Positions 1 to 13,164 of a stretch of 15,724 nt of DNA are shown here, in pieces. This DNA comes from Candidatus Mcinerneyibacteriota bacterium. GTDB taxonomy: Bacteria; Macinerneyibacteriota; Macinerneyibacteria; Macinerneyibacteriales; DSCS01. Location of the stretch: positions 1-15,724 of the forward strand of contig JAFGWL010000021.1 of assembly GCA_016937175.1 (NCBI GenBank), in the 5' to 3' direction. The position numbers and the translations under genes were made by a program. Under the pieces are notes generated by a model. The model had not been told where the DNA came from. It saw only the letters and a list, made by a program, of their open reading frames with translations, and did no database searches. The stretch's first letter is position 1; every line of letters starts with the position of its first letter.

Positions 1-538
1 TCTGGGCTTTGACGAATTTGCGCCAGCGGGCAAAGTAGATGACACCGGACATGACCAGAGCCGCCAGGACGGGGACGTAGAAGAGCTTATAGGCTTCCAC
101 GGGAGCTATGAGGAAGACCAAAATGAAGAAAACGATAAGAAAGGTATTGAACTTCCCCAAAACATTGGGCTTGGGAATGGTCTCGTATTTCAAAATCACG
201 AAGAGCGCCAGCACGGCTATGATGAAATCTCGCACGACGAAAAGGGTGGCGATCATCATGGGGAAGCCGTACTTCACAAGGGCGATCATGATAAGGTCGA
301 AAGTAAGCTTGTCCGCCACGGGGTCCAGGATCTTCCCCCATGTGGAGACCTGGTTGAGCCGGCGGGCGAGAAAACCGTCCAACGCGTCGGTGATCCCCTG
401 GATGAGGAGCAGGATGAAGATGGTCTTGAGGTTGCCGTGGAGGTCACGGTCGATCAGAAAGAGTATGAAGGGCAAAAGGGCCAGACGGAGCAAAGTAAGC
501 ATGTTGGGAATGGTCAGAAAGCGCCCTTTGAAGATCAC
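1..538 (-). CDS. pgsA: CDP-diacylglycerol--glycerol-3-phosphate 3-phosphatidyltransferase (3' end outside window)
   Basis: This integral membrane enzyme transfers the phosphatidyl group from CDP-diacylglycerol to glycerol-3-phosphate, the committed step to phosphatidylglycerol and cardiolipin. About 179 residues are visible; the family is usually 180-195 long, so only the tail is missing. The complete CDP-alcohol phosphatidyltransferase signature is present: D51xxD54G55xxAR, then G68xxxD72xxxD76, with the N-terminal PNMLTLLRL typical of PgsA. Several hydrophobic helices follow. The start is GTG at 538, which overlaps the TGA of the upstream gene as GTGA; GAGGTGA (543-549) lies 4 bases upstream, supporting the GTG over the internal ATG at codon 13. 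It is the last visible gene of the long leftward operon. The assignment to PgsA rather than a related CDP-alcohol transferase rests on the N-terminal motif and is strong but not absolute. Confidence 0.93.
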   Translation of the reverse strand, partial: MIFKGRFLTIPNMLTLLRLALLPFILFLIDRDLHGNLKTIFILLLIQGITDALDGFLARRLNQVSTWGKILDPVADKLTFDLIMIALVKYGFPMMIATLFVVRDFIIAVLALFVILKYETIPKPNVLGKFNTFLIVFFILVFLIAPVEAYKLFYVPVLAALVMSGVIYFARWRKFVKAQ

Positions 539-1161
539 AGCTTCACCTCGATGCCTATTCCGTACCCACCATCCTCCTGAATGCCCCCAGAAAGCCCCAG
601 ATTGCCCCGAGAAGCCCCGATAAAGGCGTCGACGGCACTTATCACATGATTTGCGATCAATACGGCTAAAAAGGTGTTTTTCGTCTTATAGAGGCGGTTG
701 GCCTCCTGGCGCATGTCGTAATAGTAGGCCTGCTGGGCGGGCTCATCCCAGAACGGGGTCAGTTCAGGAAGTTTCCCGATGAGTTCGTAATATTCCCCCA
801 CTTTTTCGTAGGGCAAGTTGGTCTTTGCGTAGACCCGTTCCCTGAGATACTCCCACATCTCCGTGTAGCTCTTGCGCTCGGGGTCGTCCCCTTCATAATA
901 GAAGTGGGTGTCGGCATAGGAGATGTAGCGGTCCACGGCGATGTCCGAGCGGTAGGAGAAATAGGCGGTCAGGCCGATACTCACAGCTTCAGCCAGCATA
1001 AAGGACTCTCCCTTCACCTTCTGCCCGTTCATATACTGGCCCAGCCCGGGAACGGCCAGCGAGTAGAAGAAGGCCCTGGCCGGGCTGATCCCTTCCCTCC
1101 CCGCCGCAGCAGGGAGGAGAAGGGCCAGAAGCAGAAGAAAAGAGATGATCCTCTTCATCAT
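535..1161 (-). CDS. DUF5683-like exported membrane protein A
   Basis: A 208-residue protein of unknown function. Residues 1-20 form a signal peptide or first membrane helix. Residues about 29-55 contain the small-residue-rich segment SLAVPGLGQYMNGQKVKG, followed by a hydrophobic stretch; this pattern (PGLGQ, then Y/F, G, KG) is characteristic of DUF5683 and related TM2-like families. A middle region rich in Tyr and charged residues (about 75-165) is followed by a final hydrophobic segment with SAVDAFIGAS, carrying a conserved-looking Asp. It begins with MM one base after the stop of the PorV-like gene and has no clear Shine-Dalgarno sequence, so translation is probably coupled to that gene. 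A second protein with the same plan is encoded at 8855-9325. The family name is inferred from pattern memory. Confidence 0.7.
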   Translation of the reverse strand: MMKRIISFLLLLALLLPAAAGREGISPARAFFYSLAVPGLGQYMNGQKVKGESFMLAEAVSIGLTAYFSYRSDIAVDRYISYADTHFYYEGDDPERKSYTEMWEYLRERVYAKTNLPYEKVGEYYELIGKLPELTPFWDEPAQQAYYYDMRQEANRLYKTKNTFLAVLIANHVISAVDAFIGASRGNLGLSGGIQEDGGYGIGIEVKL

Positions 1162-1162
1162 A

Positions 1163-2110
1163 TCAGAACCGGAAGCTTAACGAATAGATGCTGGTTCCCT
1201 TGTCCAGCGTGTAAAGATTATCCATGGCAAAGTCAAGGCTGATATTGGCATAGGAGAAACCCATCCCCCAGTTGAAAGCGGAATCGTCGTAATAGTTATT
1301 GGTATAATAGCCGCCCCGCAGGAAGATCACATCCATAAAGGCGATCTCACATCCCCAGTGAAGAGACGAGTTCTCTGTGAAGAGATCCACCATATCCATA
1401 TCATAGCCTGCCGACATGGTCAGCGCTGTGTTCCACGGTTTGTAGTCCAGCGTCCCGTGAAAGCCTGAGCGCAGGTAGCGGGGCAGGCTGTCGGACTGTT
1501 CCCGGTCCTGATAGGAGATCCGGGGGCCGATGTTCTGGATGGTCGCTCCGGCGCCGTATTCCAGAGTCACGTCGGGGCTGAAATCCTTTGCATTTTTATA
1601 GAGCGCTCCCACGTCTACAGCTACACTGCTGCCTGTATAATCGGGAGAAAGATGGTCATTGATATATTTCAGAGAGACTCCGGCCCCCCAATGGTCGTCG
1701 AGTTTTATCGCATAGGTCAGGCCGAGGACCATCTGATAGACGGTGAAAGAAGGCAGAGCCTGGCCGAACTCATCTGTGGCCTGGACATCCCCTCCTCCGA
1801 AATAGAGGATTGTAAGGCCCACTGTCCCGTAGAGAGGGCGGACGGGCATAAAGAAGCTCAAAGCCTCATTGTCCTGGTCGAACTCTTCGATCTGCTGATA
1901 GTTCAGGAAGATCTCTTTCTGTTCGAAAAAGGCGCTTCCCGCCACATTATAGATAAAGGTCTCTCCGCCTTCGGCGATGGAAGCATAACTCCGTCCCATG
2001 CCCAGGGAGCGCCCCCCCATCTCGGCATTGGCAAAAATAGCGCCCGGCATCTCAGCCATCACAGGAAGCGCTGCACAAAGAATCACAAGTATCAGTGTCA
2101 AGTGTTTCAT
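1163..2110 (-). CDS. PorV/PorQ (UPF0164)-type outer-membrane beta-barrel protein
   Basis: A 315-residue exported protein with a cleavable signal peptide of about 19 residues (ending PVMA). The mature start, roughly residues 30-60, reads as GGRSLGMGRSYASIAEG then YNVAGSAFF, the opening seen in PorV/PorQ and UPF0164 proteins, where an inward N-terminal segment and an NPA-like motif precede the barrel. Alternating hydrophobic/aromatic strands continue to the end, and the protein terminates in Phe (SLSFRF), a typical BAM recognition end. The ribosome binding site AAAGGAG lies 6 bases before the ATG. It sits 49 bases after prs, the largest gap in the operon, and is directly followed by the DUF5683-like A gene. 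PorV takes part in type IX secretion in Bacteroidota; whether this homologue does is unknown, since no other T9SS gene is in view. Confidence 0.8.
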   Translation of the reverse strand: MKHLTLILVILCAALPVMAEMPGAIFANAEMGGRSLGMGRSYASIAEGGETFIYNVAGSAFFEQKEIFLNYQQIEEFDQDNEALSFFMPVRPLYGTVGLTILYFGGGDVQATDEFGQALPSFTVYQMVLGLTYAIKLDDHWGAGVSLKYINDHLSPDYTGSSVAVDVGALYKNAKDFSPDVTLEYGAGATIQNIGPRISYQDREQSDSLPRYLRSGFHGTLDYKPWNTALTMSAGYDMDMVDLFTENSSLHWGCEIAFMDVIFLRGGYYTNNYYDDSAFNWGMGFSYANISLDFAMDNLYTLDKGTSIYSLSFRF

Positions 2111-2159
2111 GTTATCTCCTTTCCTCCCCTTCTTTTACGCTTTTTCCCTTCATCTGTTG

Positions 2160-3248
2160 CTACTCCAGGACAGAATAGGGATCTTCAGGGCAGAAAAACT
2201 GGGTGATGGAAGAGCCGATGTTGATCCGGTAGATGATCTCGGCGGCCAGTCGCGCCGAACTCACTACGTTCATAAAGGGCAGTTCCTTTTTCATAGCCTC
2301 GGGGATGTAGATGGTATCCACGCAGAGGAAGTGTTCCAGAAAACCCTCTTCGTGGAGCTTGCTCAGGCGCTGGACAGCCGGCCCCGAAAGGACGGGGTGG
2401 ATGATGGCGATGTTCACGTGTTTCACCCCGCGTTTTTTGAGCTCTTTGACCAGGGTATAGACCGAGCCTCCCGTGTCGATCATGTCATCTACGATCCAGA
2501 TGGTCTTGTCGTCCAGGGGAGAATCGCTCAGAATATCGATCTTCTCCACGGTGTTGGCCTGGGTGATGCTCCGGCGTTTATTAGCGATGACCAGGTCACA
2601 GTTGAAGGTCTCTGCAAATTGGCGCGCCATCTTCTCTCCGCCGGCATCCACCGAGCAGATGGCCCACTTTTCGTGGACTTTTGTGCTGAAGGCTGCCTTC
2701 GTCTTGACAAAGTCCTTGAGCATATGGTATTTCAGAAGGGATGTGGCGGGCATATCGTCTATATTGGCCTTGGTGGGGTCGATGATGGTCTTGGACTTGT
2801 CCGAATGGAGCTGAAAGGTGATGTAGTGGGTCATCCCCAGGGTCATCATGGTCTTGATGTGGATCCAGAGTCCCACCGAAGAGCGGCGGGTGGCCCGGTC
2901 GCTCCGTGAACAGGAAGTGTAGGGCTCAAAGACCGTCAGGCTCTTGGCCTGGGCCCGTGCCAAAGCGTCGATGGCATGGTAGAGCTCGATCTGGTTGTCT
3001 CCCACGGACAGGTTGTATTTATTGCGCCGGGAAGAGTTATGGAAGAGGTAGACATCTTTTTTACGGATGGACTCGCCGATGTCCACTTCGATCTCCCCGT
3101 CGGAAAAGGTCTTGACCTCCAGGTCCCCTTTCAGGTCTTTATATTTCCGTGTGAACTCGTTAAGGTTTTTCAACTCCTCGATCACGGAAACAGCATAATC
3201 TTCAGAACTGCGTGTGGAAAAAATCTGGACTTTACCCCTGTCCATCAT
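2160..3248 (-). CDS. prs: Ribose-phosphate pyrophosphokinase (divergent)
   Basis: PRPP synthetase makes phosphoribosyl pyrophosphate from ribose-5-phosphate and ATP, for nucleotide, NAD, His and Trp synthesis. Visible family marks are FSDGE (48-52), His148 in a QLH context, SVDAGG (199-204) supplying a metal-binding Asp201, the flexible-loop KRR (224-226) and the PRPP-binding loop VDDMIDTGGS (253-262). It is 362 residues long, against about 315 for typical bacterial Prs, with an insert near 70-84 and extra terminal residues. The usual FGYARQDR is TSCSRSDR here, and the usual DLHxxQIQGFF signature is not kept. Start ATG at 3248 lies 4 bases after the upstream stop; AGGGG precedes it weakly, and a second ATG at 3245 is possible. 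The core catalytic residues suggest an active enzyme, but regulation or oligomer contacts probably differ. Confidence 0.9.
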   Translation of the reverse strand: MMDRGKVQIFSTRSSEDYAVSVIEELKNLNEFTRKYKDLKGDLEVKTFSDGEIEVDIGESIRKKDVYLFHNSSRRNKYNLSVGDNQIELYHAIDALARAQAKSLTVFEPYTSCSRSDRATRRSSVGLWIHIKTMMTLGMTHYITFQLHSDKSKTIIDPTKANIDDMPATSLLKYHMLKDFVKTKAAFSTKVHEKWAICSVDAGGEKMARQFAETFNCDLVIANKRRSITQANTVEKIDILSDSPLDDKTIWIVDDMIDTGGSVYTLVKELKKRGVKHVNIAIIHPVLSGPAVQRLSKLHEEGFLEHFLCVDTIYIPEAMKKELPFMNVVSSARLAAEIIYRINIGSSITQFFCPEDPYSVLE

Positions 3249-3252
3249 GCTA

Positions 3253-4698
3253 TCAACCCCTTTTTATGACTTTCGGTATGGCGGCAGCAAGGCCGCTCGC
3301 TGGAAAATGAACCTCCCCCCCCTCGACGAGCCGGTCACCGGCCCGGCTGTGCAAAAGCACGCCGGCAGATGCCGCCTCCTCCCGGGAAAGTCCCCGGGCC
3401 CAGAGCGCAGCAACCACCCCGCTCAGAATATCACCACTCCCCATGGTGGCAAGAAAAGAATTGCCTGCCGGGTTAAAAGAAAAGCTCCCGTCAGGGAAAA
3501 AGATAACCGTGCCGTGGGATTTAAGGATCAGGACGCACTCCTCCTCCCGGGCAAAGCTTTGGCCCAGGGGGATCATCTTTTCGCGGATCTTATCCACGGG
3601 CACTCCGGTCATCTGAGAAAACTCCCCCAGGTGAGGCGTGACGATCGTCTGATGGATACCTTTTCTGTAAAATTTTTCAAAAAAGAAGAGCGCATCGGCA
3701 TCCAGGACAAAGCGCTTCCCCTTTTCTTTATCAAAAAGATCCGTTAAAAAACTTTTAGCCCCTTCACTCTGTCCCAGTCCCGGGCCGATGAGATGGACAG
3801 CGCACTTGTCATGAAGCGAAACGTCTTGAAAATTCTCGTGGCCGCGCACGATGAGTTCAGCGGGCGCTTGCACCGGCCCCTTTTGAAGCACATCGGTGAC
3901 CACATACCCGGCTCCTGAGCGAAGCGCGCCCATTGAGGCCAGGAGAGGCGCTCCTGTGTAGGGTTCAGCTCCGCCGATGACCTGCACGGCTCCTCTGCTG
4001 TATTTATGGGTATCAGCAGGCGGATCGGGAATGGAAAGTAAGTGGTCTGAGAGAAGCATTCCCTGAAACTCTTTTTCCTCTTTGTCTTGAGCCTTCACGC
4101 CGATGGGGACGACGGAGAGCTTCCCGCTCAAGACCCGCCCGTCATTGATGAAATGTCCGTATTTGGGATATTCAAAAGTCACAGTCTCTTGAGCTTTCAG
4201 AGCGTCTGCAGCAGCGACTCCCGTATCCCCGTTGACGCCCGAGGGAATGTCCAAAGCCCGGACAGGGAGATTCATCGAAGAGGCCTTCCGGAAGACCTTT
4301 CTCACTTCTTCGGGGAGCTCTCCCTGAAAGCCTGTCCCGAAGACCGCATCGATGATGACTTCACTATCCCGAAAATCTCTTGTTTCAATGACCGTGATCC
4401 CGTGATTCAGGGCCAGCCTTTGTTGAAAAAGGCCCTCTTCTGTAACAGGCTCCATCAAGGGGAAGATCCTCACGTCGTAACCGTTCACATGAAGGATCCG
4501 ACCTACAGCCCAGCCGTCTCCACCGTTGTTTCCTTTCCCGGTGAGGATAGTGATGCGTTTCTCCCCCGGGACTTGAACCATAAAAATGCGCGCAAAGGCC
4601 TGGGCGGCCTGTTCCATGAGAAGAAGCGAGGTATACCCTCTCTTCTTTACGGCGTTTTGATCGCAGCGTCTCATCTCCGCAACAGACAGGACTTTCAC
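3253..4698 (-). CDS. nnrDE: Bifunctional NAD(P)H-hydrate epimerase / ADP-dependent NAD(P)H-hydrate dehydratase
   Basis: This metabolite-repair enzyme epimerises R-NAD(P)HX to the S form (N-terminal YjeF_N domain) and dehydrates it back to NAD(P)H using ADP (C-terminal YjeF_C, ribokinase-like domain). With the chosen start it is 481 residues. N-domain marks are GKGNNGGDG (54-62), VIIDAVFGTG with Asp117, and DIPSGVNGDTG (150-160). C-domain marks are RGAVQVIGGAEPYTGAP (235-251), GPGLGQ (305-310), DADAL (333-337), TPHLGE (354-359), NPAGN (409-413) and GSGD with catalytic Asp423. The start is GTG at 4698, overlapping the acpS TGA as GTGA, with GGGAGG at 4704-4709 five bases upstream. An in-frame extension to 4842 would lie inside acpS and carries no family sequence, so it is rejected. 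The neighbour acpS matches a common arrangement with nnrD in many bacteria. Confidence 0.96.
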   Translation of the reverse strand: MKVLSVAEMRRCDQNAVKKRGYTSLLLMEQAAQAFARIFMVQVPGEKRITILTGKGNNGGDGWAVGRILHVNGYDVRIFPLMEPVTEEGLFQQRLALNHGITVIETRDFRDSEVIIDAVFGTGFQGELPEEVRKVFRKASSMNLPVRALDIPSGVNGDTGVAAADALKAQETVTFEYPKYGHFINDGRVLSGKLSVVPIGVKAQDKEEKEFQGMLLSDHLLSIPDPPADTHKYSRGAVQVIGGAEPYTGAPLLASMGALRSGAGYVVTDVLQKGPVQAPAELIVRGHENFQDVSLHDKCAVHLIGPGLGQSEGAKSFLTDLFDKEKGKRFVLDADALFFFEKFYRKGIHQTIVTPHLGEFSQMTGVPVDKIREKMIPLGQSFAREEECVLILKSHGTVIFFPDGSFSFNPAGNSFLATMGSGDILSGVVAALWARGLSREEAASAGVLLHSRAGDRLVEGGEVHFPASGLAAAIPKVIKRG

Positions 4699-5048
4699 AG
4701 GAGCCTCCCGGGAGATGCGATGGCCACGGCATAGGCATGGCAATGAGAGAGGGAGAGGTGCAGCCTGCGCTCCCTTTTTCCGTTGACGATAAAATAGGGC
4801 TGGCCGTTTTCCTGGCGGGAGACTTCGATCTGGGCCAGACACTTTCCGTGAAGCCCTCCCTTAGCCTTGATATAGGACTCTTTGGCGGCGAAACGCACCG
4901 CATACGAGGGATAAGGGTTCACCTTGCTGGAGCAATAGGCGATCTCCCGGTCCGAATAGATTCGTTTGAGGAACCGCTCTCCCCGTTTTTCAATGGCATG
5001 TTTGATCCGGTCGATCTCGATAATATCAACGCCTACAGACATCATCAT
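4695..5048 (-). CDS. acpS: Holo-[acyl-carrier-protein] synthase
   Basis: AcpS transfers 4'-phosphopantetheine from CoA to apo-ACP, switching on fatty-acid synthesis in the cytoplasm. The 117-residue product has the usual family length. Metal ligands are visible as Asp8 in GVDIIEIDRI and Glu57 in RFAAKES; YSDREIAYCSSK (31-42) and SLSHCHAYAVA near the C-terminus are also typical. Three consecutive ATG codons occur at 5048, 5045 and 5042. The first overlaps the preceding glmM stop as ATGA and gives family-like numbering for Asp8 and Glu57, so it is chosen; a GTG at 5063 is possible but unlikely. The Shine-Dalgarno sequence is weak, pointing to translational coupling with glmM. The 3' end overlaps the nnrDE start by GTGA. 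Confidence 0.96.
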   Translation of the reverse strand: MMMSVGVDIIEIDRIKHAIEKRGERFLKRIYSDREIAYCSSKVNPYPSYAVRFAAKESYIKAKGGLHGKCLAQIEVSRQENGQPYFIVNGKRERRLHLSLSHCHAYAVAIASPGRLL

Positions 5049-6391
5049 TCCATCACTTTCCACATGGATCTAATTTTTTCTTCCAGCCACTCTTTTGAAA
5101 GGCTCTCGCCGATGACGCGCATAGCAGGCTCAGTCCCCGAAGGGCGGATATGGATCCAGCCCTCCTCAAAGGAGAGACGCAGCCCGTCGTTGGTATCGAT
5201 CCCGCGTACATCCGAAAACTCGTGTCCTTCCAAACGTTTGAAGGCTTCCCGACGCTCATCCAGCGTGGAAAAACTCTTTTTCTCTTTGACCATGACATAA
5301 GGGGGAAAACTTCTGACAAGTTCTGATATGCTTTTCTTGCGGCGCGCTATGAGATCCAGGATCAGGGCGATCCCCAGGGGGGCGTCCCTGGTCACGTGGA
5401 GCGCCGGATAGATGACACCGCCGTTCCCCTCGCCTCCGATGACCGCTTTCCTTTCGATGATCAGCTGCGCTACATTAGCTTCCCCCACAGGAGCGCGGAA
5501 GAGGCGGGCTCCGTTTCGCCGGGCCGCTTCTTCGGTAAGAGAGCTTGTGGAGTAGTTGCAGACCACATCCCCTTTTTTCTTTTCCAGGACGCTTTCCACG
5601 GCCAGGGCCAAAGTAAACTCCTCCCCGGGGGCTGTTCCCTCGTCGGTGACGAGAGCCAGCCGGTCCACATCAGGGTCGTGGGCAAATCCGATATGGGCCT
5701 TTGTCTTTTTCACCAAGTCTTCCAGCTCTCCCAGATGGTCAGGCGTGGGCTCAGGATCGCGTGGAAAAAGCCCTGTAGGCTCTTCATTGATAGTATGGAC
5801 CGTGCAGCCCAGCCGCTTCAACAGAAGAGGCGTGATGACGCCTCCCGCTCCGTTGACACAATCCAGGGCCACGATGAAATGCTCATTTTTGATACGTTCT
5901 GTGTCCACCAGGGCGCATATCTTATCGATATGGCGCTCTACAGCTTTATCGTCGCAGGAGATCCTGCCAAGTTTGTTCCAGGGCATAAGGGGAAAATCTC
6001 TTTTCCCAAGGATCGCCTGGAGCTTTTTTGATTCTTCCCTGTTCAGGAAGATCCCCCTGGAAGAAGCCAGTTTCAAGGCATTCCACTCTTTGGGGTTGTG
6101 AGAGGCGGTGACGATGATCCCGCCGTCGGCTTTCAAATCGTTGACGGCCAGAAGGACTGTGGGGGTGGGGACGATCCCCAGGTCGATGACATCCACCCCG
6201 GCCGACGAAAGGGCTCCGGTGATGAGGGAAGCGATCATGGGGCCGCTGACACGGCTGTCGCGCCCCAGGACGACCTTTCCGCCCCGGATGAGGCGCGCAA
6301 AGGCCCGGGTATAGTCAAGGATGACGTCGGGAGTGAGGCTGTCGCCTACGATCCCCCGGATCCCGGAGACACTTACCATGAGTTCGCTCAT
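5045..6391 (-). CDS. glmM: Phosphoglucosamine mutase-type phosphohexomutase
   Basis: A cytoplasmic alpha-D-phosphohexomutase of 448 residues, probably converting glucosamine-6-phosphate to glucosamine-1-phosphate for UDP-GlcNAc, peptidoglycan and LPS. The four domains each show their hallmark: phosphoserine loop TASHNP with Ser97, metal loop DPDVDR (Asp239, 241, 243), sugar-binding GEGNGG (320-325) and phosphate-binding RPSGTEP (416-422). The N-terminus MVSVSGIRGIVG is family-typical. The ATG at 6391 overlaps the previous stop as ATGA, and AGGAG lies about 8 bases upstream. The family also contains phosphomannomutase/phosphoglucomutase enzymes, and sequence alone does not settle the substrate; the immediately preceding GlmU-like gene favours GlmM. 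The following gene is acpS, also coupled by ATGA. Confidence 0.88.
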   Translation of the reverse strand: MSELMVSVSGIRGIVGDSLTPDVILDYTRAFARLIRGGKVVLGRDSRVSGPMIASLITGALSSAGVDVIDLGIVPTPTVLLAVNDLKADGGIIVTASHNPKEWNALKLASSRGIFLNREESKKLQAILGKRDFPLMPWNKLGRISCDDKAVERHIDKICALVDTERIKNEHFIVALDCVNGAGGVITPLLLKRLGCTVHTINEEPTGLFPRDPEPTPDHLGELEDLVKKTKAHIGFAHDPDVDRLALVTDEGTAPGEEFTLALAVESVLEKKKGDVVCNYSTSSLTEEAARRNGARLFRAPVGEANVAQLIIERKAVIGGEGNGGVIYPALHVTRDAPLGIALILDLIARRKKSISELVRSFPPYVMVKEKKSFSTLDERREAFKRLEGHEFSDVRGIDTNDGLRLSFEEGWIHIRPSGTEPAMRVIGESLSKEWLEEKIRSMWKVME

Positions 6392-7458
6392 CGGCCCTCT
6401 CCTTTTTGATGGAACCCTTTGCTCGCGTTGAAAACCGCGCGCATCTGCTCTTCATAGTCTTCGCTCATCTCTTTATGTCTGCGTCCCATGACGATCTTTT
6501 CCGTATGAATGAAGGAGCGGATCTCATAGAGTCTGGTCCGGCCGTCCACATGCCAGGAAAAGGGCGGAAGCCACGTGGGAGCCATGCCTCCTCCTGCGAT
6601 AAGGCTTCCCAGGGAGATCCTGGATCCCGTATTGAGAAGGGTCCCGATCCCCGTTTTCACGTGATCGCCTATAAGAGCCCCCAGCTTGAGGAGGGGTGTG
6701 GCTTTGCGTTCTCCCTGAGCATCGGGAAAGTGCACAGGTGAATAGTTGTTTTTGAGGTCGCTCCCTGTGGTAAGGGCACCCAGGTTCACCCAGCGTCCTA
6801 TCACGCTGTGTCCTATAAAACCTTCATGGTGTTTGTTGGAAAAGGGATGGAAGATGGATTCCTCCACTTCCCCTCCCATACGGCAGGCTTCGCCGATGTA
6901 AGAAGCGCGTATGCGCGCGCTTTCGATGATACTGTCGGGGCCGATGTAAAGAGGCCCTTCCAAAACCGAAAAAGGCTTGACCGAAGCGCGGGCATCGATG
7001 ACTACAGGCCCCTCTTCGGTGCTCACAGAGACCGGGCCGGCGATCCGCGCTGTCTTATGGATGAGAAGGTCTTTGCGCCCGCCTCTGAGGACGACTCCCT
7101 CGGGCAGGACATGGAGAAACTCCTCTTCGTCCATAAACAAACGGTCCTCTTCGGCCATTTGACTGTGCAAACTGAAAAGCTCTATGGGGTCTTCGATAAA
7201 AACGCAATCCGCTTCGCTTAACTCTATGCGCCGTCCTCCGCCCTGATAGGTGAGAACGCTTGTCTCATTGAAATAAAAATCAGAAGGCGTATCGGGAAGT
7301 ACCGGGACCCGCGCCCGGATCAAACCGGGGACGGGGCGGAAATCCTTTCCCCCTTCAGGGAGAGTCCGCCTGAGACGCTCAGAGACTGAAAAAAGCCCGC
7401 AGCAGAAATCATCTGAGAGAGAGAAATGACCATGGGCGTTTTCTGCAGAAAGCTTCAT
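6388..7458 (-). CDS. GlmU-like left-handed beta-helix acyltransferase with degenerate N-terminal domain
   Basis: A 356-residue protein resembling the Bacteroidota-type GlmU family (TIGR03991-like). Residues about 130-300 form hexapeptide-repeat (LbetaH) turns: HKTARIAGP, GPVVIDARASV, GPLYIGPDSII, YIGEACRMGGEVEESI, then FSNKHHEGFIGHSVIG, WVNLGALTTGSDLKNNY and GDHVKTGIGTLLNTGS, close to the acetyltransferase half of that family. The first 120 residues are short and do not show the canonical GlmU pyrophosphorylase motif (LAAGxGTRM) nor the TRPxADIR-type motif of the Bacteroidota form; GLFSVSERLRRTL (21-33) may be a remnant of the latter. It is co-transcribed with glmM through an ATGA overlap, so a role in UDP-GlcNAc synthesis is likely, but only acetyltransfer is well supported. 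AGGAGG lies 11 bases before the ATG. Confidence 0.78.
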   Translation of the reverse strand: MKLSAENAHGHFSLSDDFCCGLFSVSERLRRTLPEGGKDFRPVPGLIRARVPVLPDTPSDFYFNETSVLTYQGGGRRIELSEADCVFIEDPIELFSLHSQMAEEDRLFMDEEEFLHVLPEGVVLRGGRKDLLIHKTARIAGPVSVSTEEGPVVIDARASVKPFSVLEGPLYIGPDSIIESARIRASYIGEACRMGGEVEESIFHPFSNKHHEGFIGHSVIGRWVNLGALTTGSDLKNNYSPVHFPDAQGERKATPLLKLGALIGDHVKTGIGTLLNTGSRISLGSLIAGGGMAPTWLPPFSWHVDGRTRLYEIRSFIHTEKIVMGRRHKEMSEDYEEQMRAVFNASKGFHQKGEGR

Positions 7459-7461
7459 CGC

Positions 7462-8085
7462 TTACGGGCCCTCCTTGACGAGGATGGTCGTGGGGACGAT
7501 CCAGGCATCCTTGTATCCCAGAAGCTTGATGTATTTGAGGGCATACTGGGCTTCGCTGCGTGACTTGAAGTTTCCCACCCGAAGCTTCCAGTAGGGATCG
7601 TAGAATTCGATGTAGATGGGGATCTCTTCGCGGTAATGGTAGGAGTCCTCGTTTTCCTTGTCCAGGGCCGCTTCATTCCACTTCTCTTTGAACTCTTTGC
7701 CGAAGCTTTCAGCGTTCTCCTTCTGGGTCACTGTGATGAGCTGGACGCGGTAGCCGCTGTCGCGTTTAAGGATAACCGTCCCGGTGGGGACATTTTCGGC
7801 ATCTTCTACGATGGGAGGCAGGCTGTCGTCCTCTTCGTCATAGTTGATATTGACAGAGACATCCTCTTCTTCGGCCGAATCGGTGTGGGCCTGAGCTACG
7901 ACCACGCCTTCACGGACATTGATCTCCGCCACGTCGGAATCGTCGATCTTGAGCTCTTCAATGGTGGTTTCCTGGGGGACATCCTCCTCTTCGGTAGTGC
8001 GGCCGCCCAGGCGGTCTTTGATATTTTGATTCTGGCAGGCTGCCAGGGCCGCGATAAGAAATACGGCCAACAGGATCCTTTTCAT
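7462..8085 (-). CDS. SPOR-domain lipoprotein
   Basis: A 207-residue lipoprotein. The signal peptide ends in the lipobox LAAC with Cys17 as the lipidated residue. Residues 30-100 form a strongly acidic, low-complexity linker rich in Glu and Asp. Residues about 111-204 match a SPOR domain: GYRVQLITVTQKENAESF, then WKLRVGNFKSRSEAQYAL and the final strand AWIVPT. SPOR domains bind peptidoglycan glycan strands lacking stem peptides, mostly at division septa, so this protein probably tethers to the outer membrane and contacts septal cell wall. The ATG at 8085 overlaps the previous TGA as ATGA, with AAAGGAGGGG just upstream. An inserted stretch (about 130-155) makes the SPOR domain longer than usual. 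Function beyond wall binding is unknown. Confidence 0.88.
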   Translation of the reverse strand: MKRILLAVFLIAALAACQNQNIKDRLGGRTTEEEDVPQETTIEELKIDDSDVAEINVREGVVVAQAHTDSAEEEDVSVNINYDEEDDSLPPIVEDAENVPTGTVILKRDSGYRVQLITVTQKENAESFGKEFKEKWNEAALDKENEDSYHYREEIPIYIEFYDPYWKLRVGNFKSRSEAQYALKYIKLLGYKDAWIVPTTILVKEGP

Positions 8086-8855
8086 AACCCCTCCTTTACA
8101 ATATCCGATAAGCCGGGAGTACCGTTCACAGCAATCCCTACTGTAACAACGACTCCCTCCTTGGTCAATTCTTTCTTGAGGACACGCGCTCCTTTGATGG
8201 TGACGTCAAGGCGCGATCCATCGATTTCGAACCCCTCTTTTTGGGCGATATTTTTGAGCAGGATCCCCAGGTTCCGATAGGCGGTCACCTTGGCGGCGCG
8301 CTCCGCCTCCAGCCGGACACTGGCATCACTCCCCCCGCCGAACCTGGCAAACCCCGAAGCGGTAATGATCCCCCGCTCGCTGTTCACGCCCTCGTAGGAA
8401 TGTTTCAAACTGAGCTGTCCGGGAGGGGTGTCCCTGAAGTCGTAGGCGATCTTGGAGACGAGGCCCATGAAGGGCCCCGGGACAGTGAGTGTGAACTGAG
8501 CGGGCATAGAGCCGATCTCGAAAAAATCCGTGACCAGGCTCCCGTCTGAACCGCGATAGAGCGACAGAGGCTTCCCGTCTCCGGAAAGAGTTATTCCCGT
8601 TTCTCCTCCGAGCAGGGTAAGTGACAAGATGCGCACTCTGACAAAACGGGCTCCGTCTGCCTTGACGGAGGAGAAGAGAAGCCTGGCTTCCCCTCTTTCC
8701 AGGTAGGTGATGTAAAGGGCCTCTCCCACCATGGCGGTCACAGCCTTGTCGCTTGTGACATCCTCTTCAAGGCCCAGGCTGTATTCCACCTGAAGGGCGC
8801 TTAATAAGAGGGCCGGTGTCAGAAGCAGAAAAACGAAAGTCGAAAGTTTTTTCAT
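8082..8855 (-). CDS. Exported LPP20-like domain protein
   Basis: A 257-residue protein of unknown function with a signal peptide (about residues 1-20, ending LLLSA) and no lipobox Cys. The first two thirds look beta-rich, with no recognised motif. The C-terminal part, about 160-245, resembles the LPP20 / FlgT N-terminal fold: ITASGFARFGG, then an Ala- and Arg-rich helix (RLEAERAAKVTAYRNLG) and GARVLKKELTKEGVVVTVGI. Such domains occur in periplasmic or surface proteins, often without known role. The ATG at 8855 shares its A with the preceding TGA (TGATG), and AGGAG lies 6 bases upstream. It sits between DUF5683-like B and the SPOR lipoprotein in an envelope block. Confidence 0.68.
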   Translation of the reverse strand: MKKLSTFVFLLLTPALLLSALQVEYSLGLEEDVTSDKAVTAMVGEALYITYLERGEARLLFSSVKADGARFVRVRILSLTLLGGETGITLSGDGKPLSLYRGSDGSLVTDFFEIGSMPAQFTLTVPGPFMGLVSKIAYDFRDTPPGQLSLKHSYEGVNSERGIITASGFARFGGGSDASVRLEAERAAKVTAYRNLGILLKNIAQKEGFEIDGSRLDVTIKGARVLKKELTKEGVVVTVGIAVNGTPGLSDIVKEGL

Positions 8856-9325
8856 CAGAACTCCTTTTTCAGCGAGAGGACAGTCCGGCCATCTTCTGTC
8901 CGGGCCTGCTCGATATGGACGTTTTCCACCGACCAGTCGGAAAGGGAGGCTTCCACCACCCCGTCCAGAACACTGACAGCCAGGTTGATGAGATAAAAAT
9001 AGAGATACTGCTGGGTTCTGTCATAAGCCGTCTCATAACGGCTGTAGTCGTTTTCTCCGCCTGTCCGCTCATATAACTCGTAAGCTTTGTCGCTTTCTCT
9101 CCAGTAGTGATAGGTCTGGTATCCCAGAAAAGCCCCTATGGCAAAATAGATAAAGCCTTTGAGGGGTTTTCCCGCATAAAAGTCGCCCCCTCCGGGGATA
9201 ACGGTCCCAAGAGCCAGCGCTGTCAGAGCCGATTTGGATTCACCCTGCTTCTCTTGTTCTTCCTGTGCCTCTCCCGGGAGAAGTGTCATGAGAAGAATAA
9301 GAAACAAAAGGAGACACTTTTTCAT
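8855..9325 (-). CDS. DUF5683-like exported membrane protein B
   Basis: A 156-residue protein of unknown function. An N-terminal signal peptide (MKKCLLLFLILLMTLLPGEA) is followed by an acidic, Gln-rich linker, then a hydrophobic hairpin with LGTVIPGGGDFYAGKPLKG (the PGxGxxYxGxxxKG pattern), a charged Tyr-rich middle and a last hydrophobic segment YLINLAVSVLDGVVEAS. The layout repeats that of the protein at 535-1161, including an Asp in the final membrane segment. The chosen start is ATG at 9325; a GTG at 9334 would add three residues and overlap the htrA stop. The Shine-Dalgarno sequence is weak (GGTGG), so coupling with htrA is likely. The ORF ends by sharing one base with the next start. Confidence 0.7.
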   Translation of the reverse strand: MKKCLLLFLILLMTLLPGEAQEEQEKQGESKSALTALALGTVIPGGGDFYAGKPLKGFIYFAIGAFLGYQTYHYWRESDKAYELYERTGGENDYSRYETAYDRTQQYLYFYLINLAVSVLDGVVEASLSDWSVENVHIEQARTEDGRTVLSLKKEF

Positions 9326-9327
9326 GG

Positions 9328-10815
9328 TTACCACCGGGCCTGTGTCTTGAAAAAGTAGCCCCGCCGTTCGGCGATGATCTCGATCTCATCACCGGGAAGA
9401 AGGCGTGAGAGGACCGCTTCCAGGTCAGCTTTTTCATAGATCTTGCGTCCTCCGAAGACTCGCAGGACGTCATTGGGACGGAGGCCCGCTTTATAGAGAG
9501 GAGCCTTCTCCCTGAGGCTTTCGATGAGAAGCCCCTTTTCGGGCCTGATGTTGTAACGGACGGCTGTCTCATAATCGAGGGGCTTGAGAGACTCAACCCC
9601 CAGGGAAGCCAGAGCGCTGTTGAGCTGAAAGGATTGAGGAGCAAAGGAGATCTCCATCTCTTTTCCTGCATCCCAGAGGCCGAGCAGGACTTGGTCTCCT
9701 GCGTTGATGCGCATGGCCAGGCCGTTCCACCAGCGGGAGTTCCGCACCGGTATCCCGTTAAGAGAAGTCACGATCTGTCCGGGCACAAGCCCCGCTTTGG
9801 CAGCAGCTGACCCGGGATAGACTTTAGCCACCACGACCCCGTGAAAAACACCCATTTCGAATTTTTTCTTGAGTTCTTCATCGATATCCACCACGCCGAC
9901 TCCCATCCAGCCGCGCTGGACGCTTCCGTTTTTTAAAATAGCTTCAATACTCTTCCGGCATGTGTTCACAGGAATGGCAAAGCCTATCCCCTGGGACCCG
10001 CCGCTTGTGGAAAAGATGGCGTTATTGATCCCCACCAGCTCTCCCCGGGCATTGACCAGGGGGCCGCCGGAATTGCCGGGATTTATGCTGGCATCGGTCT
10101 GGATCAGGCCGTAATAGTGTTTCTTCCCCTGCCCGTCGTCGATCTGGATGGTCCTCATGAGGGCCGAGACGATGCCGGCGGTGATCGTGGGCTGGGGGTC
10201 GCCGGCCATAAGGCCGAAAGGATTGCCGGCTGCGATCACCCACTCTCCCTGGACAAGAATATCTGAATCTCCCAGGATGACATGGGGCAGTTCCGTCCCT
10301 TCCGCCCGGAGAAGAGCCACGTCGTTCATGGAATCTTCTCCCAGCAGCTTCAGCTTGTATTGCCGGCCGTCGGGAAGGGTGGCAAAAATGGAAGAGGCAC
10401 CCTCCACCACGTGATCGGCTGTGAGGATAAGCCCTTCGGGGGATATGATTACACCGGAACCCACACCGTGTTTTGTATCTCTCCGGCTGTCCGGGGCTGA
10501 ACCGAAAAACTCACGGAAAAACTCTTCAAAGACATCGTTGGAGCGTCTCTGCATGGGTTCATACTCTGTCTCTATACTCACTACGGCGGGAAGGACGTTC
10601 TGTGCCGCTACAGCCAGGGCCCCGGCCCGTTCAGCCGAGACGTCGCGGCTCACACCCTGGGAGAGGTTGAAGGGCTGCTTTACCCTCTGTCCTTCTTTTA
10701 ATCCGCTGAGAAGACGCCCGCCACCGAAACCCAGAGTCAGGAGGAGGATCGCTCCTCCGATGATCAGCAGGGTTCGAAGGGGTATCCTCCCACTCTTATC
10801 CCTTGATAAAATCAT
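9328..10815 (-). CDS. htrA: HtrA/DegP-family membrane-anchored serine protease
   Basis: An envelope protease/chaperone that degrades misfolded periplasmic proteins. It is 495 residues long, with one N-terminal hydrophobic segment (about 11-32) that probably anchors it to the inner membrane facing the periplasm. The trypsin-like domain has the full triad: His135 in TADHVV, Asp165 in MNDVALL, Ser249 in GNSGGPL. Two PDZ domains follow, at about 300-395 (RGWMGVGVVDID, AAAKAGLVPGQIV) and 405-492 (KAPLYKAGLRPNDVL). The ATG at 10815 lies inside the thioredoxin gene, overlapping it by 20 bases; AAGG is the only upstream SD-like sequence and no other in-frame start precedes the membrane segment. Several uncharacterised exported proteins follow it. 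DegP, DegQ or DegS cannot be separated by sequence here. Confidence 0.95.
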   Translation of the reverse strand: MILSRDKSGRIPLRTLLIIGGAILLLTLGFGGGRLLSGLKEGQRVKQPFNLSQGVSRDVSAERAGALAVAAQNVLPAVVSIETEYEPMQRRSNDVFEEFFREFFGSAPDSRRDTKHGVGSGVIISPEGLILTADHVVEGASSIFATLPDGRQYKLKLLGEDSMNDVALLRAEGTELPHVILGDSDILVQGEWVIAAGNPFGLMAGDPQPTITAGIVSALMRTIQIDDGQGKKHYYGLIQTDASINPGNSGGPLVNARGELVGINNAIFSTSGGSQGIGFAIPVNTCRKSIEAILKNGSVQRGWMGVGVVDIDEELKKKFEMGVFHGVVVAKVYPGSAAAKAGLVPGQIVTSLNGIPVRNSRWWNGLAMRINAGDQVLLGLWDAGKEMEISFAPQSFQLNSALASLGVESLKPLDYETAVRYNIRPEKGLLIESLREKAPLYKAGLRPNDVLRVFGGRKIYEKADLEAVLSRLLPGDEIEIIAERRGYFFKTQARW

Positions 10816-11110
10816 GGAGCGCCTTTTCGTTCATGACGCCGACTTTCTGGCGCACAAGGCGGCCGTTTTCAAAGAGAGCTACCGTTGGGATACTCATGAT
10901 CTCATGCTCTGCGGCGGTCGTTTTGGCTTCATCTACGTTTACTTTGCAGAAGACCACCTCATCGCCATACTCCTCTGCCGCCTTTTCAAAGATGGGTCCG
11001 AACATCCGGCAGGGGCTGCACCACTCCGCCCAGAAATCCACGATGACTTTGGACCCCTTCTTCTCTATGACTTTTTTGAAATCTTCATCAGTACAATGAA
11101 TGAGACCCAT
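10796..11110 (-). CDS. trxA: Thioredoxin with WCSPC active site
   Basis: A small cytoplasmic disulfide reductase of 104 residues, the standard length for bacterial thioredoxins. DFWAEWCSPCRMFGP (25-39) holds the redox Cys31 and Cys34, and the cis-proline is Pro75 in SIPT. The active site reads Cys-Ser-Pro-Cys rather than Cys-Gly-Pro-Cys, a substitution known in some thioredoxins that may shift redox potential. There is no signal peptide. A very strong AGGAGGAG lies directly upstream of the ATG. It is the second gene of the operon, nine bases after the Nif3-like gene, and overlaps htrA by 20 bases. A reductase partner is not in view. Confidence 0.95.
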   Translation of the reverse strand: MGLIHCTDEDFKKVIEKKGSKVIVDFWAEWCSPCRMFGPIFEKAAEEYGDEVVFCKVNVDEAKTTAAEHEIMSIPTVALFENGRLVRQKVGVMNEKALHDFIKG

Positions 11111-11119
11111 TTCTCCTCC

Positions 11120-11869
11120 TTAAAGGTTGGTGTCATTTTCATAAAACAGATATGTCAAAGCGGGGTATGTCCTCTCCAGAAACTCCCTGAGACGAAGAAG
11201 GCCGCCCCGCTCGGTGGCATAGTGGCCGTAGAAGAGGCCTGAAAGGCCGCTCTCCCTGAACGGATGGAACATGGCATGGTTCAGTTCTCCGCTTATGAGA
11301 AGGTCGATCCCCGATTCCAGGATCCCGTCGAGGAGAGACCCGGCATCCCCTGTGATGACTCCGGCCCTGCGGATGGGCCTCCCGCCGTCTATGACATGGC
11401 GTAGTGTATAATCTCTATTCAGAGAAGCCTTGACCTCCTCCAGGGAGCGGGCCTGGTCGAAATGCCCTGACACGCCCAAGGGCAGCCCCTTATAGGAAGC
11501 CAGGGTCCCGTCCCGGATGATCCCCGCTTCCAGGGCCAGGCTGATGTTGTTCCCCAGTTCGGGATGTTCGTCCAGGGGAAGGTGGACAGCATAGAGGCTG
11601 ATCTCGTTCTCCAGAAGGGCTTTTAAACGTTCCTTCATATAGCCCCGGACCATGAAGGGGCGGGACCAGAAGAGGCCATGGTGGACGATGATAAATCCGC
11701 AGCCCTCTTCTTTTGCCTTTTGAATGGTCTCCAGGGAGGCGTCGACAGCCAGAAGGACTTTCTCCACTTCCCCTCTCCCGGCGACCTGAAGGCCGTTTTG
11801 GGAGGGGTCGGGGAACTTTTCAGGTTCAAAAAGGGTATCTAAAGCTGCCGTCAGCTCATCTCTTTTCAT
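11120..11869 (-). CDS. Nif3-like dinuclear metal centre protein
   Basis: A member of the NIF3 / YbgI / YqfO family (often labelled GTP cyclohydrolase 1 type 2 homologue), which forms hexameric rings holding two metal ions per subunit; the biological role is unsettled. With the chosen start it is 249 residues, the short bacterial length. Metal-ligand motifs are visible as IIVHHGLFW, AVHLPLDEHPELGNN and, near the end, SGELNH with GHYATERGG. PSQNGLQVAG near the N-terminus is also typical. The ATG at 11869 places the family N-terminus correctly. An in-frame extension to 11953 would run through a perfect promoter and is rejected. Only seven bases separate the -10 box from the ATG, so the mRNA may be leaderless. 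This is the first gene of the operon. Confidence 0.92.
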   Translation of the reverse strand: MKRDELTAALDTLFEPEKFPDPSQNGLQVAGRGEVEKVLLAVDASLETIQKAKEEGCGFIIVHHGLFWSRPFMVRGYMKERLKALLENEISLYAVHLPLDEHPELGNNISLALEAGIIRDGTLASYKGLPLGVSGHFDQARSLEEVKASLNRDYTLRHVIDGGRPIRRAGVITGDAGSLLDGILESGIDLLISGELNHAMFHPFRESGLSGLFYGHYATERGGLLRLREFLERTYPALTYLFYENDTNL

Positions 11870-11876
11870 ACCCTCG

Positions 11877-11905
11877 ATTATATCGTAAGGCAGGAAAAGT
11901 GTCAA
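11877..11905 (-). promoter_or_regulatory. Consensus sigma-70 promoter of the leftward operon
   Basis: Reading leftward, TTGACA (11900-11905) and TATAAT (11877-11882) are both perfect consensus hexamers, separated by exactly 17 bases. The -10 box ends only seven bases (CGAGGGT) before the ATG of the Nif3-like gene at 11869. Transcription would be expected to begin at or within a base or two of the ATG, so the first message would have essentially no leader. No comparable promoter is seen further down the operon. Perfection of both boxes and the spacer makes chance very unlikely at this position. Confidence 0.9.
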
Positions 11906-11936
11906 CTCTTCACCATTTTCGGGAACTAATTGCTCC

Positions 11937-11965
11937 TTGACATTTTTTACCAAATAAAGTAACGT
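11937..11965 (+). promoter_or_regulatory. Probable promoter of the lipoprotein/barrel pair
   Basis: TTGACA (11937-11942) is a perfect -35 box. Seventeen bases later TAACGT (11960-11965) keeps the most conserved T, A and final T of the -10 box but differs in the middle. A start near 11972 would give a leader of about 14 bases containing the AGGAGG ribosome binding site at 11973-11978. It lies back to back with the leftward promoter, the two -35 boxes being 31 bases apart, so a shared regulator could bind between them. No operator sequence was recognised there. Confidence 0.6.
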
Positions 11966-11985
11966 TCAAGCAAGGAGGAACCTGC

Positions 11986-13164
11986 ATGCGTAAATCTATT
12001 TTCATTATATTGATCATTATGTCCGCCCTTTTCGGCTGTGGCAAAAAGGGCCCCATCGAGCTGCCCACTTCGGAAAGCTACATCAACGACAACCTTCAGC
12101 CCCCCGAGGAGATGGACCTGGCGGTGACAAGGTCCTACACCCACGTCATCCGCTTCGATCCCGTCCTCAACCAGGAAGGCTGGGTGGGACGGGCCCAGGG
12201 GACTGAGATCCGTCTTCTCTACAACGCTCCGGCTGAAGTAGCTGACGATCCGGACGCCGTCTACACCTTACGGCTTCATCTTCTCTACAAGATGGGGCTC
12301 TCGTCCCTCAACGTGACCATCGCCCCTCTAACCACAGGCTGGGACAGTTCTTCGGTGACCTGGGAAGAGGCGTCTGAAGACACTCCGTGGACCACCCCCG
12401 GGGGTGACTATGACCCGGCCCATGCCGTGACGGCAACGGTATCCGAAGCGGAGGATTCGCTTATTTCCATCGATATCACTCCCCTCTATGACTACTGGGC
12501 TGAAAACGAAAACCACGGATTCATCATCATCGCCAATGATTTCCTCATGACCGACCCGGAGCACCTGGCCTTTTCCACGCCCTACAACAATGACGATGAG
12601 ACCGATGAGAAGCCGGCCATCCTCATCACATCGGGTGAGACCACCACAACCGAGCTGATCACCTCATCCGATCATATCTCCGACCTTTCCGCCCGGCCGG
12701 AATACGCCAACGACCCGGCTCTCTTCGCCCTGGGTGACGGTTACGTCCCGGTCCTGGCCCTCGACTACTCTCCTTTGGATTACAAATGGGAGATCCTGGA
12801 AGCCACCCTCTCCTTCACAGCAGACCCTGTACTCATGAAATATTATTTCGGCCTGGACATCACCGTTCCTGAAGAAACCGAGGAAAAGATCTACTGCTAT
12901 ACGGTGGAGAACGAAGACCCGACCGATTTCACCTTTGACAAATACGGCAGCACGGTCCCGGGCTATGACGAGGCCACCTCGCGCTTTACCCTGGATATCA
13001 CCGGGTCTCTGCGCCATGCTTTTGAGAATAATCAGCCCATCGGGCTGGTGCCGCCCCATTACCGCAACCAGCTCCGCGAGATGGCGATCACTGATGCGGC
13101 TGTCCACATCGTCTACCGCAGGAACATAGAAGAATATGAAGAAGATTTCGAGGTGACTGAATGA
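11986..13164 (+). CDS. DNRLRE-type outer-membrane lipoprotein with LptM-like N-terminus
   Basis: A 392-residue lipoprotein. The signal peptide ends in the lipobox LFGC, with Cys18 lipidated; the following residues CGKKGPIELP resemble the start of LptM/YifL-type lipoproteins (CGxKGPLYxP). Gly at +2 favours export to the outer membrane. Residues about 60-215 look like a DNRLRE domain, with TTGWDSSSVTWEEA, PWTTPGGDYD and the strand SIDITPLYDYW. A second, more diverged copy seems to span about 225-378 (TLDITGSLRHAFENN). The protein is strongly acidic and ends EEYEEDFEVTE. AGGAGG lies seven bases before the ATG, and its stop overlaps the next start as ATGA. The function is unknown; co-expression with a barrel protein suggests a surface or outer-membrane complex. 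Confidence 0.78.
   Translation: MRKSIFIILIIMSALFGCGKKGPIELPTSESYINDNLQPPEEMDLAVTRSYTHVIRFDPVLNQEGWVGRAQGTEIRLLYNAPAEVADDPDAVYTLRLHLLYKMGLSSLNVTIAPLTTGWDSSSVTWEEASEDTPWTTPGGDYDPAHAVTATVSEAEDSLISIDITPLYDYWAENENHGFIIIANDFLMTDPEHLAFSTPYNNDDETDEKPAILITSGETTTTELITSSDHISDLSARPEYANDPALFALGDGYVPVLALDYSPLDYKWEILEATLSFTADPVLMKYYFGLDITVPEETEEKIYCYTVENEDPTDFTFDKYGSTVPGYDEATSRFTLDITGSLRHAFENNQPIGLVPPHYRNQLREMAITDAAVHIVYRRNIEEYEEDFEVTE

Follow-up and report, generated by a model that had tools for sequence, protein, structure and literature searches.

The nif3 gene of the genome studied here is preceded by a perfect sigma-70-type promoter, very likely the main promoter of a conserved nif3-trxA-htrA operon. 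Transcription from it would begin on the first base of the nif3 start codon or 1–2 nt before it, and nif3 would therefore be translated from a leaderless 5′ AUG. It is a clean, conserved example: a perfect −35 and −10, a nearly fixed distance to the AUG, a predicted leaderless first cistron and Shine-Dalgarno (SD) use later in the operon.

A perfect promoter directly in front of nif3

The stretch of DNA analysed (the window) is 15,724 nt long and carries the feature on its minus strand, where direct inspection of the sequence reads TTGACA-CTTTTCCTGCCTTACGA-TATAAT-CGAGGGT-ATG. This matches exactly the layout in the first-pass annotation (TTGACA, 17 bases, TATAAT, seven bases, ATG). The compared set consisted of three genomes of the phylum: our own (G000), a sister species of the same genus (G001; MAG SpSt-1200, DSCS01000018.1, labelled Bacillota) and a genome of the same order from another family (G002). 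The parts are as follows.

11900..11905, minus strand: −35 hexamer TTGACA, 6/6; same hexamer in G001 and G002
11883..11899, minus strand: spacer of 17 nt, CTTTTCCTGCCTTACGA; 11/17 identity with the sister species G001
11877..11882, minus strand: −10 hexamer TATAAT, 6/6; same hexamer in G001 and G002
11870..11876, minus strand: discriminator CGAGGGT, 7 nt; CAAGGGT in G001, AAATCT in G002
11869–11867, minus strand: nif3 ATG (A = 11869), 7 nt after TATAAT

This is the sole 12/12 promoter-like site of the window, in which about 0.003 such sites are expected by chance (0.0025 from base composition; both strands, spacers of 16–18). A search of the whole 1.88-Mb genome for exact TTGACA-N15-19-TATAAT gives 26 sites, against none for the reversed control, and almost all of the 26 sit 5′ of a same-strand ORF or of a tRNA-like sequence, the latter assigned by eye. 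Because of this ratio of 26 to 0 and the position of nearly all sites before ORFs or tRNA-like sequences, the site in front of nif3 is very probably a real promoter. Its spacer of 17 nt compares with a mode of 16 nt (18/26) among the perfect promoters, and most protein genes behind these have leaders of about 20–60 nt with SD sites. Several perfect promoters of the genome precede tRNA-like sequences.

The first-pass annotation had proposed a comparison of the upstream regions in related genomes, and this brought the promoter to light in both relatives. In G001, whose Nif3 protein is 64% identical to that of our genome, it reads TTGACA-17-TATAAT-CAAGGGT-ATG (7 nt to the ATG), with both hexamers and the distance to the ATG unchanged and 11 of the 17 spacer positions identical. 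In G002, with a Nif3 identity of 39–40%, it reads TTGACA-16-TATAAT-AAATCT-ATG (6 nt). A perfect promoter thus lies 6–7 nt before the nif3 ATG in all three genomes of the phylum compared, and judged from these alignments it is a footprint preserved across large divergence. That the promoter serves another transcript, such as a small RNA, and that its distance to the ATG is accidental, is very improbable: searches of the window for Rfam families and tRNAs gave no hit and no support for such an RNA, and the distance of 6–7 nt is kept in three diverged genomes and recurs in the genome-wide class described below.

The start codon of nif3

Two reading frames have to be considered for the start of the protein.

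11120..11869, minus strand: nif3, 249 aa, DUF34/NIF3 (Pfam PF01784); heads the operon and is predicted to be leaderless
11870..11953, minus strand: putative 28-codon N-terminal extension with a TTG start (11953), rejected; stops in relatives

The product is a member of the DUF34/NIF3 family by a full-length match to PF01784 (1.2e-54, residues 1–247 on model positions 1–254 of 256), and the alignment to the model begins at residue 1 of MKRDEL. In our genome the frame is also open upstream, from TTG 11953, so the protein could carry 28 additional residues and the promoter match would be coincidental. This is scarcely credible. The frame upstream of MKRDEL is closed in both relatives: G001 has a TGA and a TAG in the extension frame, the nearer one separated from the ATG by five codons, and the TAG falls inside its promoter spacer region; G002 has several stops. 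Moreover, the perfect promoter is conserved against the minute number of chance matches expected. The in-frame stops in G001 and G002, together with the Pfam model starting at MKRDEL, exclude the extension. The first-pass annotation had rejected it too, but on the grounds that the promoter disproves it; a promoter may lie within coding DNA, and so the promoter alone would not have sufficed and it is the stops in the relatives that decide. The analysis fixes the nif3 start codon: the codon following the −10, the ATG at MKRDEL that had been taken as the true start, is predicted to be the real one.

Predicted transcription start and leader length

RNA polymerase prefers to start 7 bp past the −10 element. 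Starts more than 1 bp before this point or more than 2 bp beyond it are rare, so that they lie about 6–9 bp from the element; purine-rich discriminators favour upstream starts (PMC5730371). These start-site rules give the following prediction.

11869..11871, minus strand: predicted transcription start, A 11869 or, less likely, T 11870 or G 11871 (start-site rules, PMC5730371)

Counted from the −10, G 11871 is position 6, T 11870 position 7 and A 11869 position 8. T 11868 is also within the allowed starts, but a start there would destroy the nif3 AUG. Since the rules are applied to a −10-to-ATG distance of 7 nt, the nif3 leader would measure only 0–2 nt, in line with the earlier prediction of a start at or next to the A of the ATG, and A 11869 is the most likely start. 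A start at position 6 or 7, with a leader of 1–2 nt (UAUG or GUAUG), would be a near-leaderless variant of the same explanation and is a real if lesser possibility, because the discriminator is purine-rich and favours upstream starts and because position 7 is the modal one (PMC5730371). Against this, position 7 holds a T, a base that initiates poorly; the A of position 8 is preceded by a T, and in G002 the distance of 6 nt puts the A of the ATG at exactly position 7. A pyrimidine at −1, the signature expected for a start at A, is present at nif3; in a broad sample it was about as frequent in the leaderless class as among SD genes (69% versus 65%, Fisher p = 0.82).

No SD site at usable spacing was found in the sequence upstream of nif3. 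The GAGG of the discriminator CGAGGGT is 2 nt away from the ATG, and the GAGGG cannot act as an SD because it is too close and predicted to be mostly untranscribed. This also bears on the idea that nif3 is transcribed, additionally or mainly, from a promoter farther upstream and is leadered, with the perfect promoter being secondary. A site on the same strand at 12044-12016 (TTGCCA-17-CATAAT) matches the consensus in 10 of 12 positions, but it falls within the divergent gene's coding sequence, G001 does not conserve it, and the leadered message would lack an SD at a suitable distance from the nif3 ATG. Such a role for an upstream promoter is improbable, and the site at 12044-12016 was rejected for want of a conserved counterpart in G001.

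The lack of a usable SD and the promoter geometry conserved in G001 and G002 support, from sequence, the leaderless reading of the first-pass annotation. From the promoter, the gene order, their conservation and the genome-wide class, all of which are observed directly, we infer the nif3 5′ end and leaderless initiation: a sigma-70-type RNA polymerase would start at the A of the ATG or 1–2 nt upstream, nif3 would be translated from its leaderless 5′ AUG, to which 70S ribosomes presumably bind directly, and the downstream cistrons would rely on SD sites or on coupling. Translation of other leaderless mRNAs is relatively resistant to kasugamycin. On leaderless messages it is mainly 70S ribosomes that bind at the 5′ AUG, and initiation is sensitive to the level of IF3 (PMC9031893).

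The operon and its Shine-Dalgarno sites

2..11110, minus strand: remaining probable operon, comprising trxA, htrA, orf159, orf257, orf207, hexapeptide/GlmU-like, pgm, acpS, nnr, prs-like, orf315, orf208 and pgsA

From 11869 to the contig edge, which the operon reaches, 14 genes point in the same direction with overlaps or gaps of at most 9 nt and a single exception of 49 nt; this arrangement agrees with the 14-gene operon proposed earlier. The order nif3-trxA-htrA-orf159-orf257-orf207-hexapeptide-pgm is common to all three genomes, with nif3 leading each time, and G001 shares it beyond pgm through acpS-nnr. Strong SD sites had been said to occur on the downstream genes alone. There is indeed none before nif3, and trxA, orf257, orf207, pgm and orf315 have good ones, but the generalization does not extend to htrA, orf159, prs and orf208, which are without a clear SD. 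As only the operon-proximal cistron can be leaderless and distal ones usually need an SD (Zheng et al., PMC3160421), the contrast fits in outline what would be expected of a leaderless first cistron. A sparsely sampled phylum (three genomes) would thus mix SD-led and leaderless genes, as predicted from sequence.

A 16S rRNA gene, sought for its anti-SD tail, was not detected in any of the three assemblies of the phylum, two of which are about 99% complete. A missing 16S gene is common in MAGs.

Other genes with the same promoter–ATG geometry

The arrangement is not confined to nif3. TATAATN4-9ATG occurs 101 times in the whole genome, versus 40 for the reversed pattern. TATAAT precedes the ATGs of long ORFs at distances of 5, 6, 7 and 8 nt in 2, 20, 6 and 2 cases, respectively, counted in the whole genome for ORFs with a short upstream frame, distances outside 5–8 being partly sampled. 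In a sample of 411 kb, hexamers with at least 5/6 matches were found 15 times at a distance of 6 nt and 14 times at 7 nt, where internal ATGs lead one to expect about 2.6 each; the excess is about 24 among 367 ORFs, or roughly 6%, which is a crude figure. In three genes the perfect promoter is placed exactly 7 nt ahead of the ATG, and G001 keeps it in all three: nif3 (64% identity), a gene for a HATPase-domain protein (52%) and a heptosyltransferase-like gene (78%). By these counts, nif3 belongs to a genome-wide class with the same promoter-ATG geometry.

A further perfect promoter of our genome (G000:C18, ~2651-2700) has an ATG 6 nt downstream that opens a 13-codon ORF (MQKLSEQKFDFFA). Behind it comes a gene of 440 aa that has a good SD and begins 99 nt from the −10; the short ORF is perhaps a leaderless leader peptide.

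Relation to known leaderless genes

In TA-led leaderless genes, which are widespread but not dominant, a TATAAT-like signal about 10 bp 5′ of the start replaces the SD (Zheng et al. 2011, PMC3160421). The nif3 gene shares several features of this class: a −10 within 5–8 nt of the start codon (7 nt, TATAAT 6/6), the lack of a usable SD and conservation in orthologues (3/3 genomes). As in that study, the proximal gene of the operon would be leaderless and distal genes SD-led. Unlike the TA-led genes, nif3 also has a perfect −35, and it represents one orthologous promoter kept throughout a sparsely sampled phylum, which that survey may not have covered (PMC3160421). In Deinococcus-Thermus, close to a third of the genes carry a −10 motif (TANNNT, often TACACT) adjacent to the ORF (Zhong et al. 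2025, PMC12340547). The likeness lies in a −10 located 6–7 bp before the ORF, in leaderless mRNA, which is predicted for nif3, and in the use of the motif to correct wrong upstream starts, whereas the class described here would be a minority with the consensus TATAAT. According to two studies, leaderless mRNAs are common beside SD-led ones in mycobacteria, where they were mapped by RNA-seq and ribosome profiling (PMC3898074, PMC4633059); the nif3 case comes from sequence and comparison. Taken as predicted, nif3 is a further example of a known, uncommon mode of translation start.

Among the papers searched, none links DUF34/NIF3 with leaderless mRNA. Among 54 nif3 genes from other phyla, a −10-like hexamer lies 6–8 nt before the start in 6, versus 0.7 in shuffles, a comparison that covered the nif3 genes alone in those genomes. 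Such hexamers were seen in some MAGs of Spirochaetes, Bacteriovoracia and Chloroflexi. As Chloroflexi and Spirochaetes are among the lineages given as users of leaderless genes (PMC3160421), the hexamers may mirror a genome-wide habit rather than something particular to nif3. As the layout is kept in all three genomes of the phylum and such hexamers recur in other lineages, it is tempting to speculate that selection has long maintained the leaderless start at nif3, that this is not a lineage habit, and that it perhaps couples the operon to the state of ribosomes or initiation factors, but we consider this rather unlikely.

The divergent gene

11937..11965, plus strand: probable promoter of the divergent lipoprotein-like gene, TTGACA at 11937-11942, 17 nt, TAACGT at 11960-11965 (weak −10)
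11986..13164, plus strand: divergent gene for a 392-aa protein with a lipoprotein-like signal; its SD is AAGGAGGA (11972-11979)

The 392-aa protein has no Pfam match. Its promoter block is nearly identical in G001. Between the two divergent −35 boxes, the block CGGGAACTAATTGCTCC (11919-11936) is also nearly identical in the sister species, and the adjacent linker has diverged; this block may serve the lipoprotein-like gene as a regulator site or as an upstream element.
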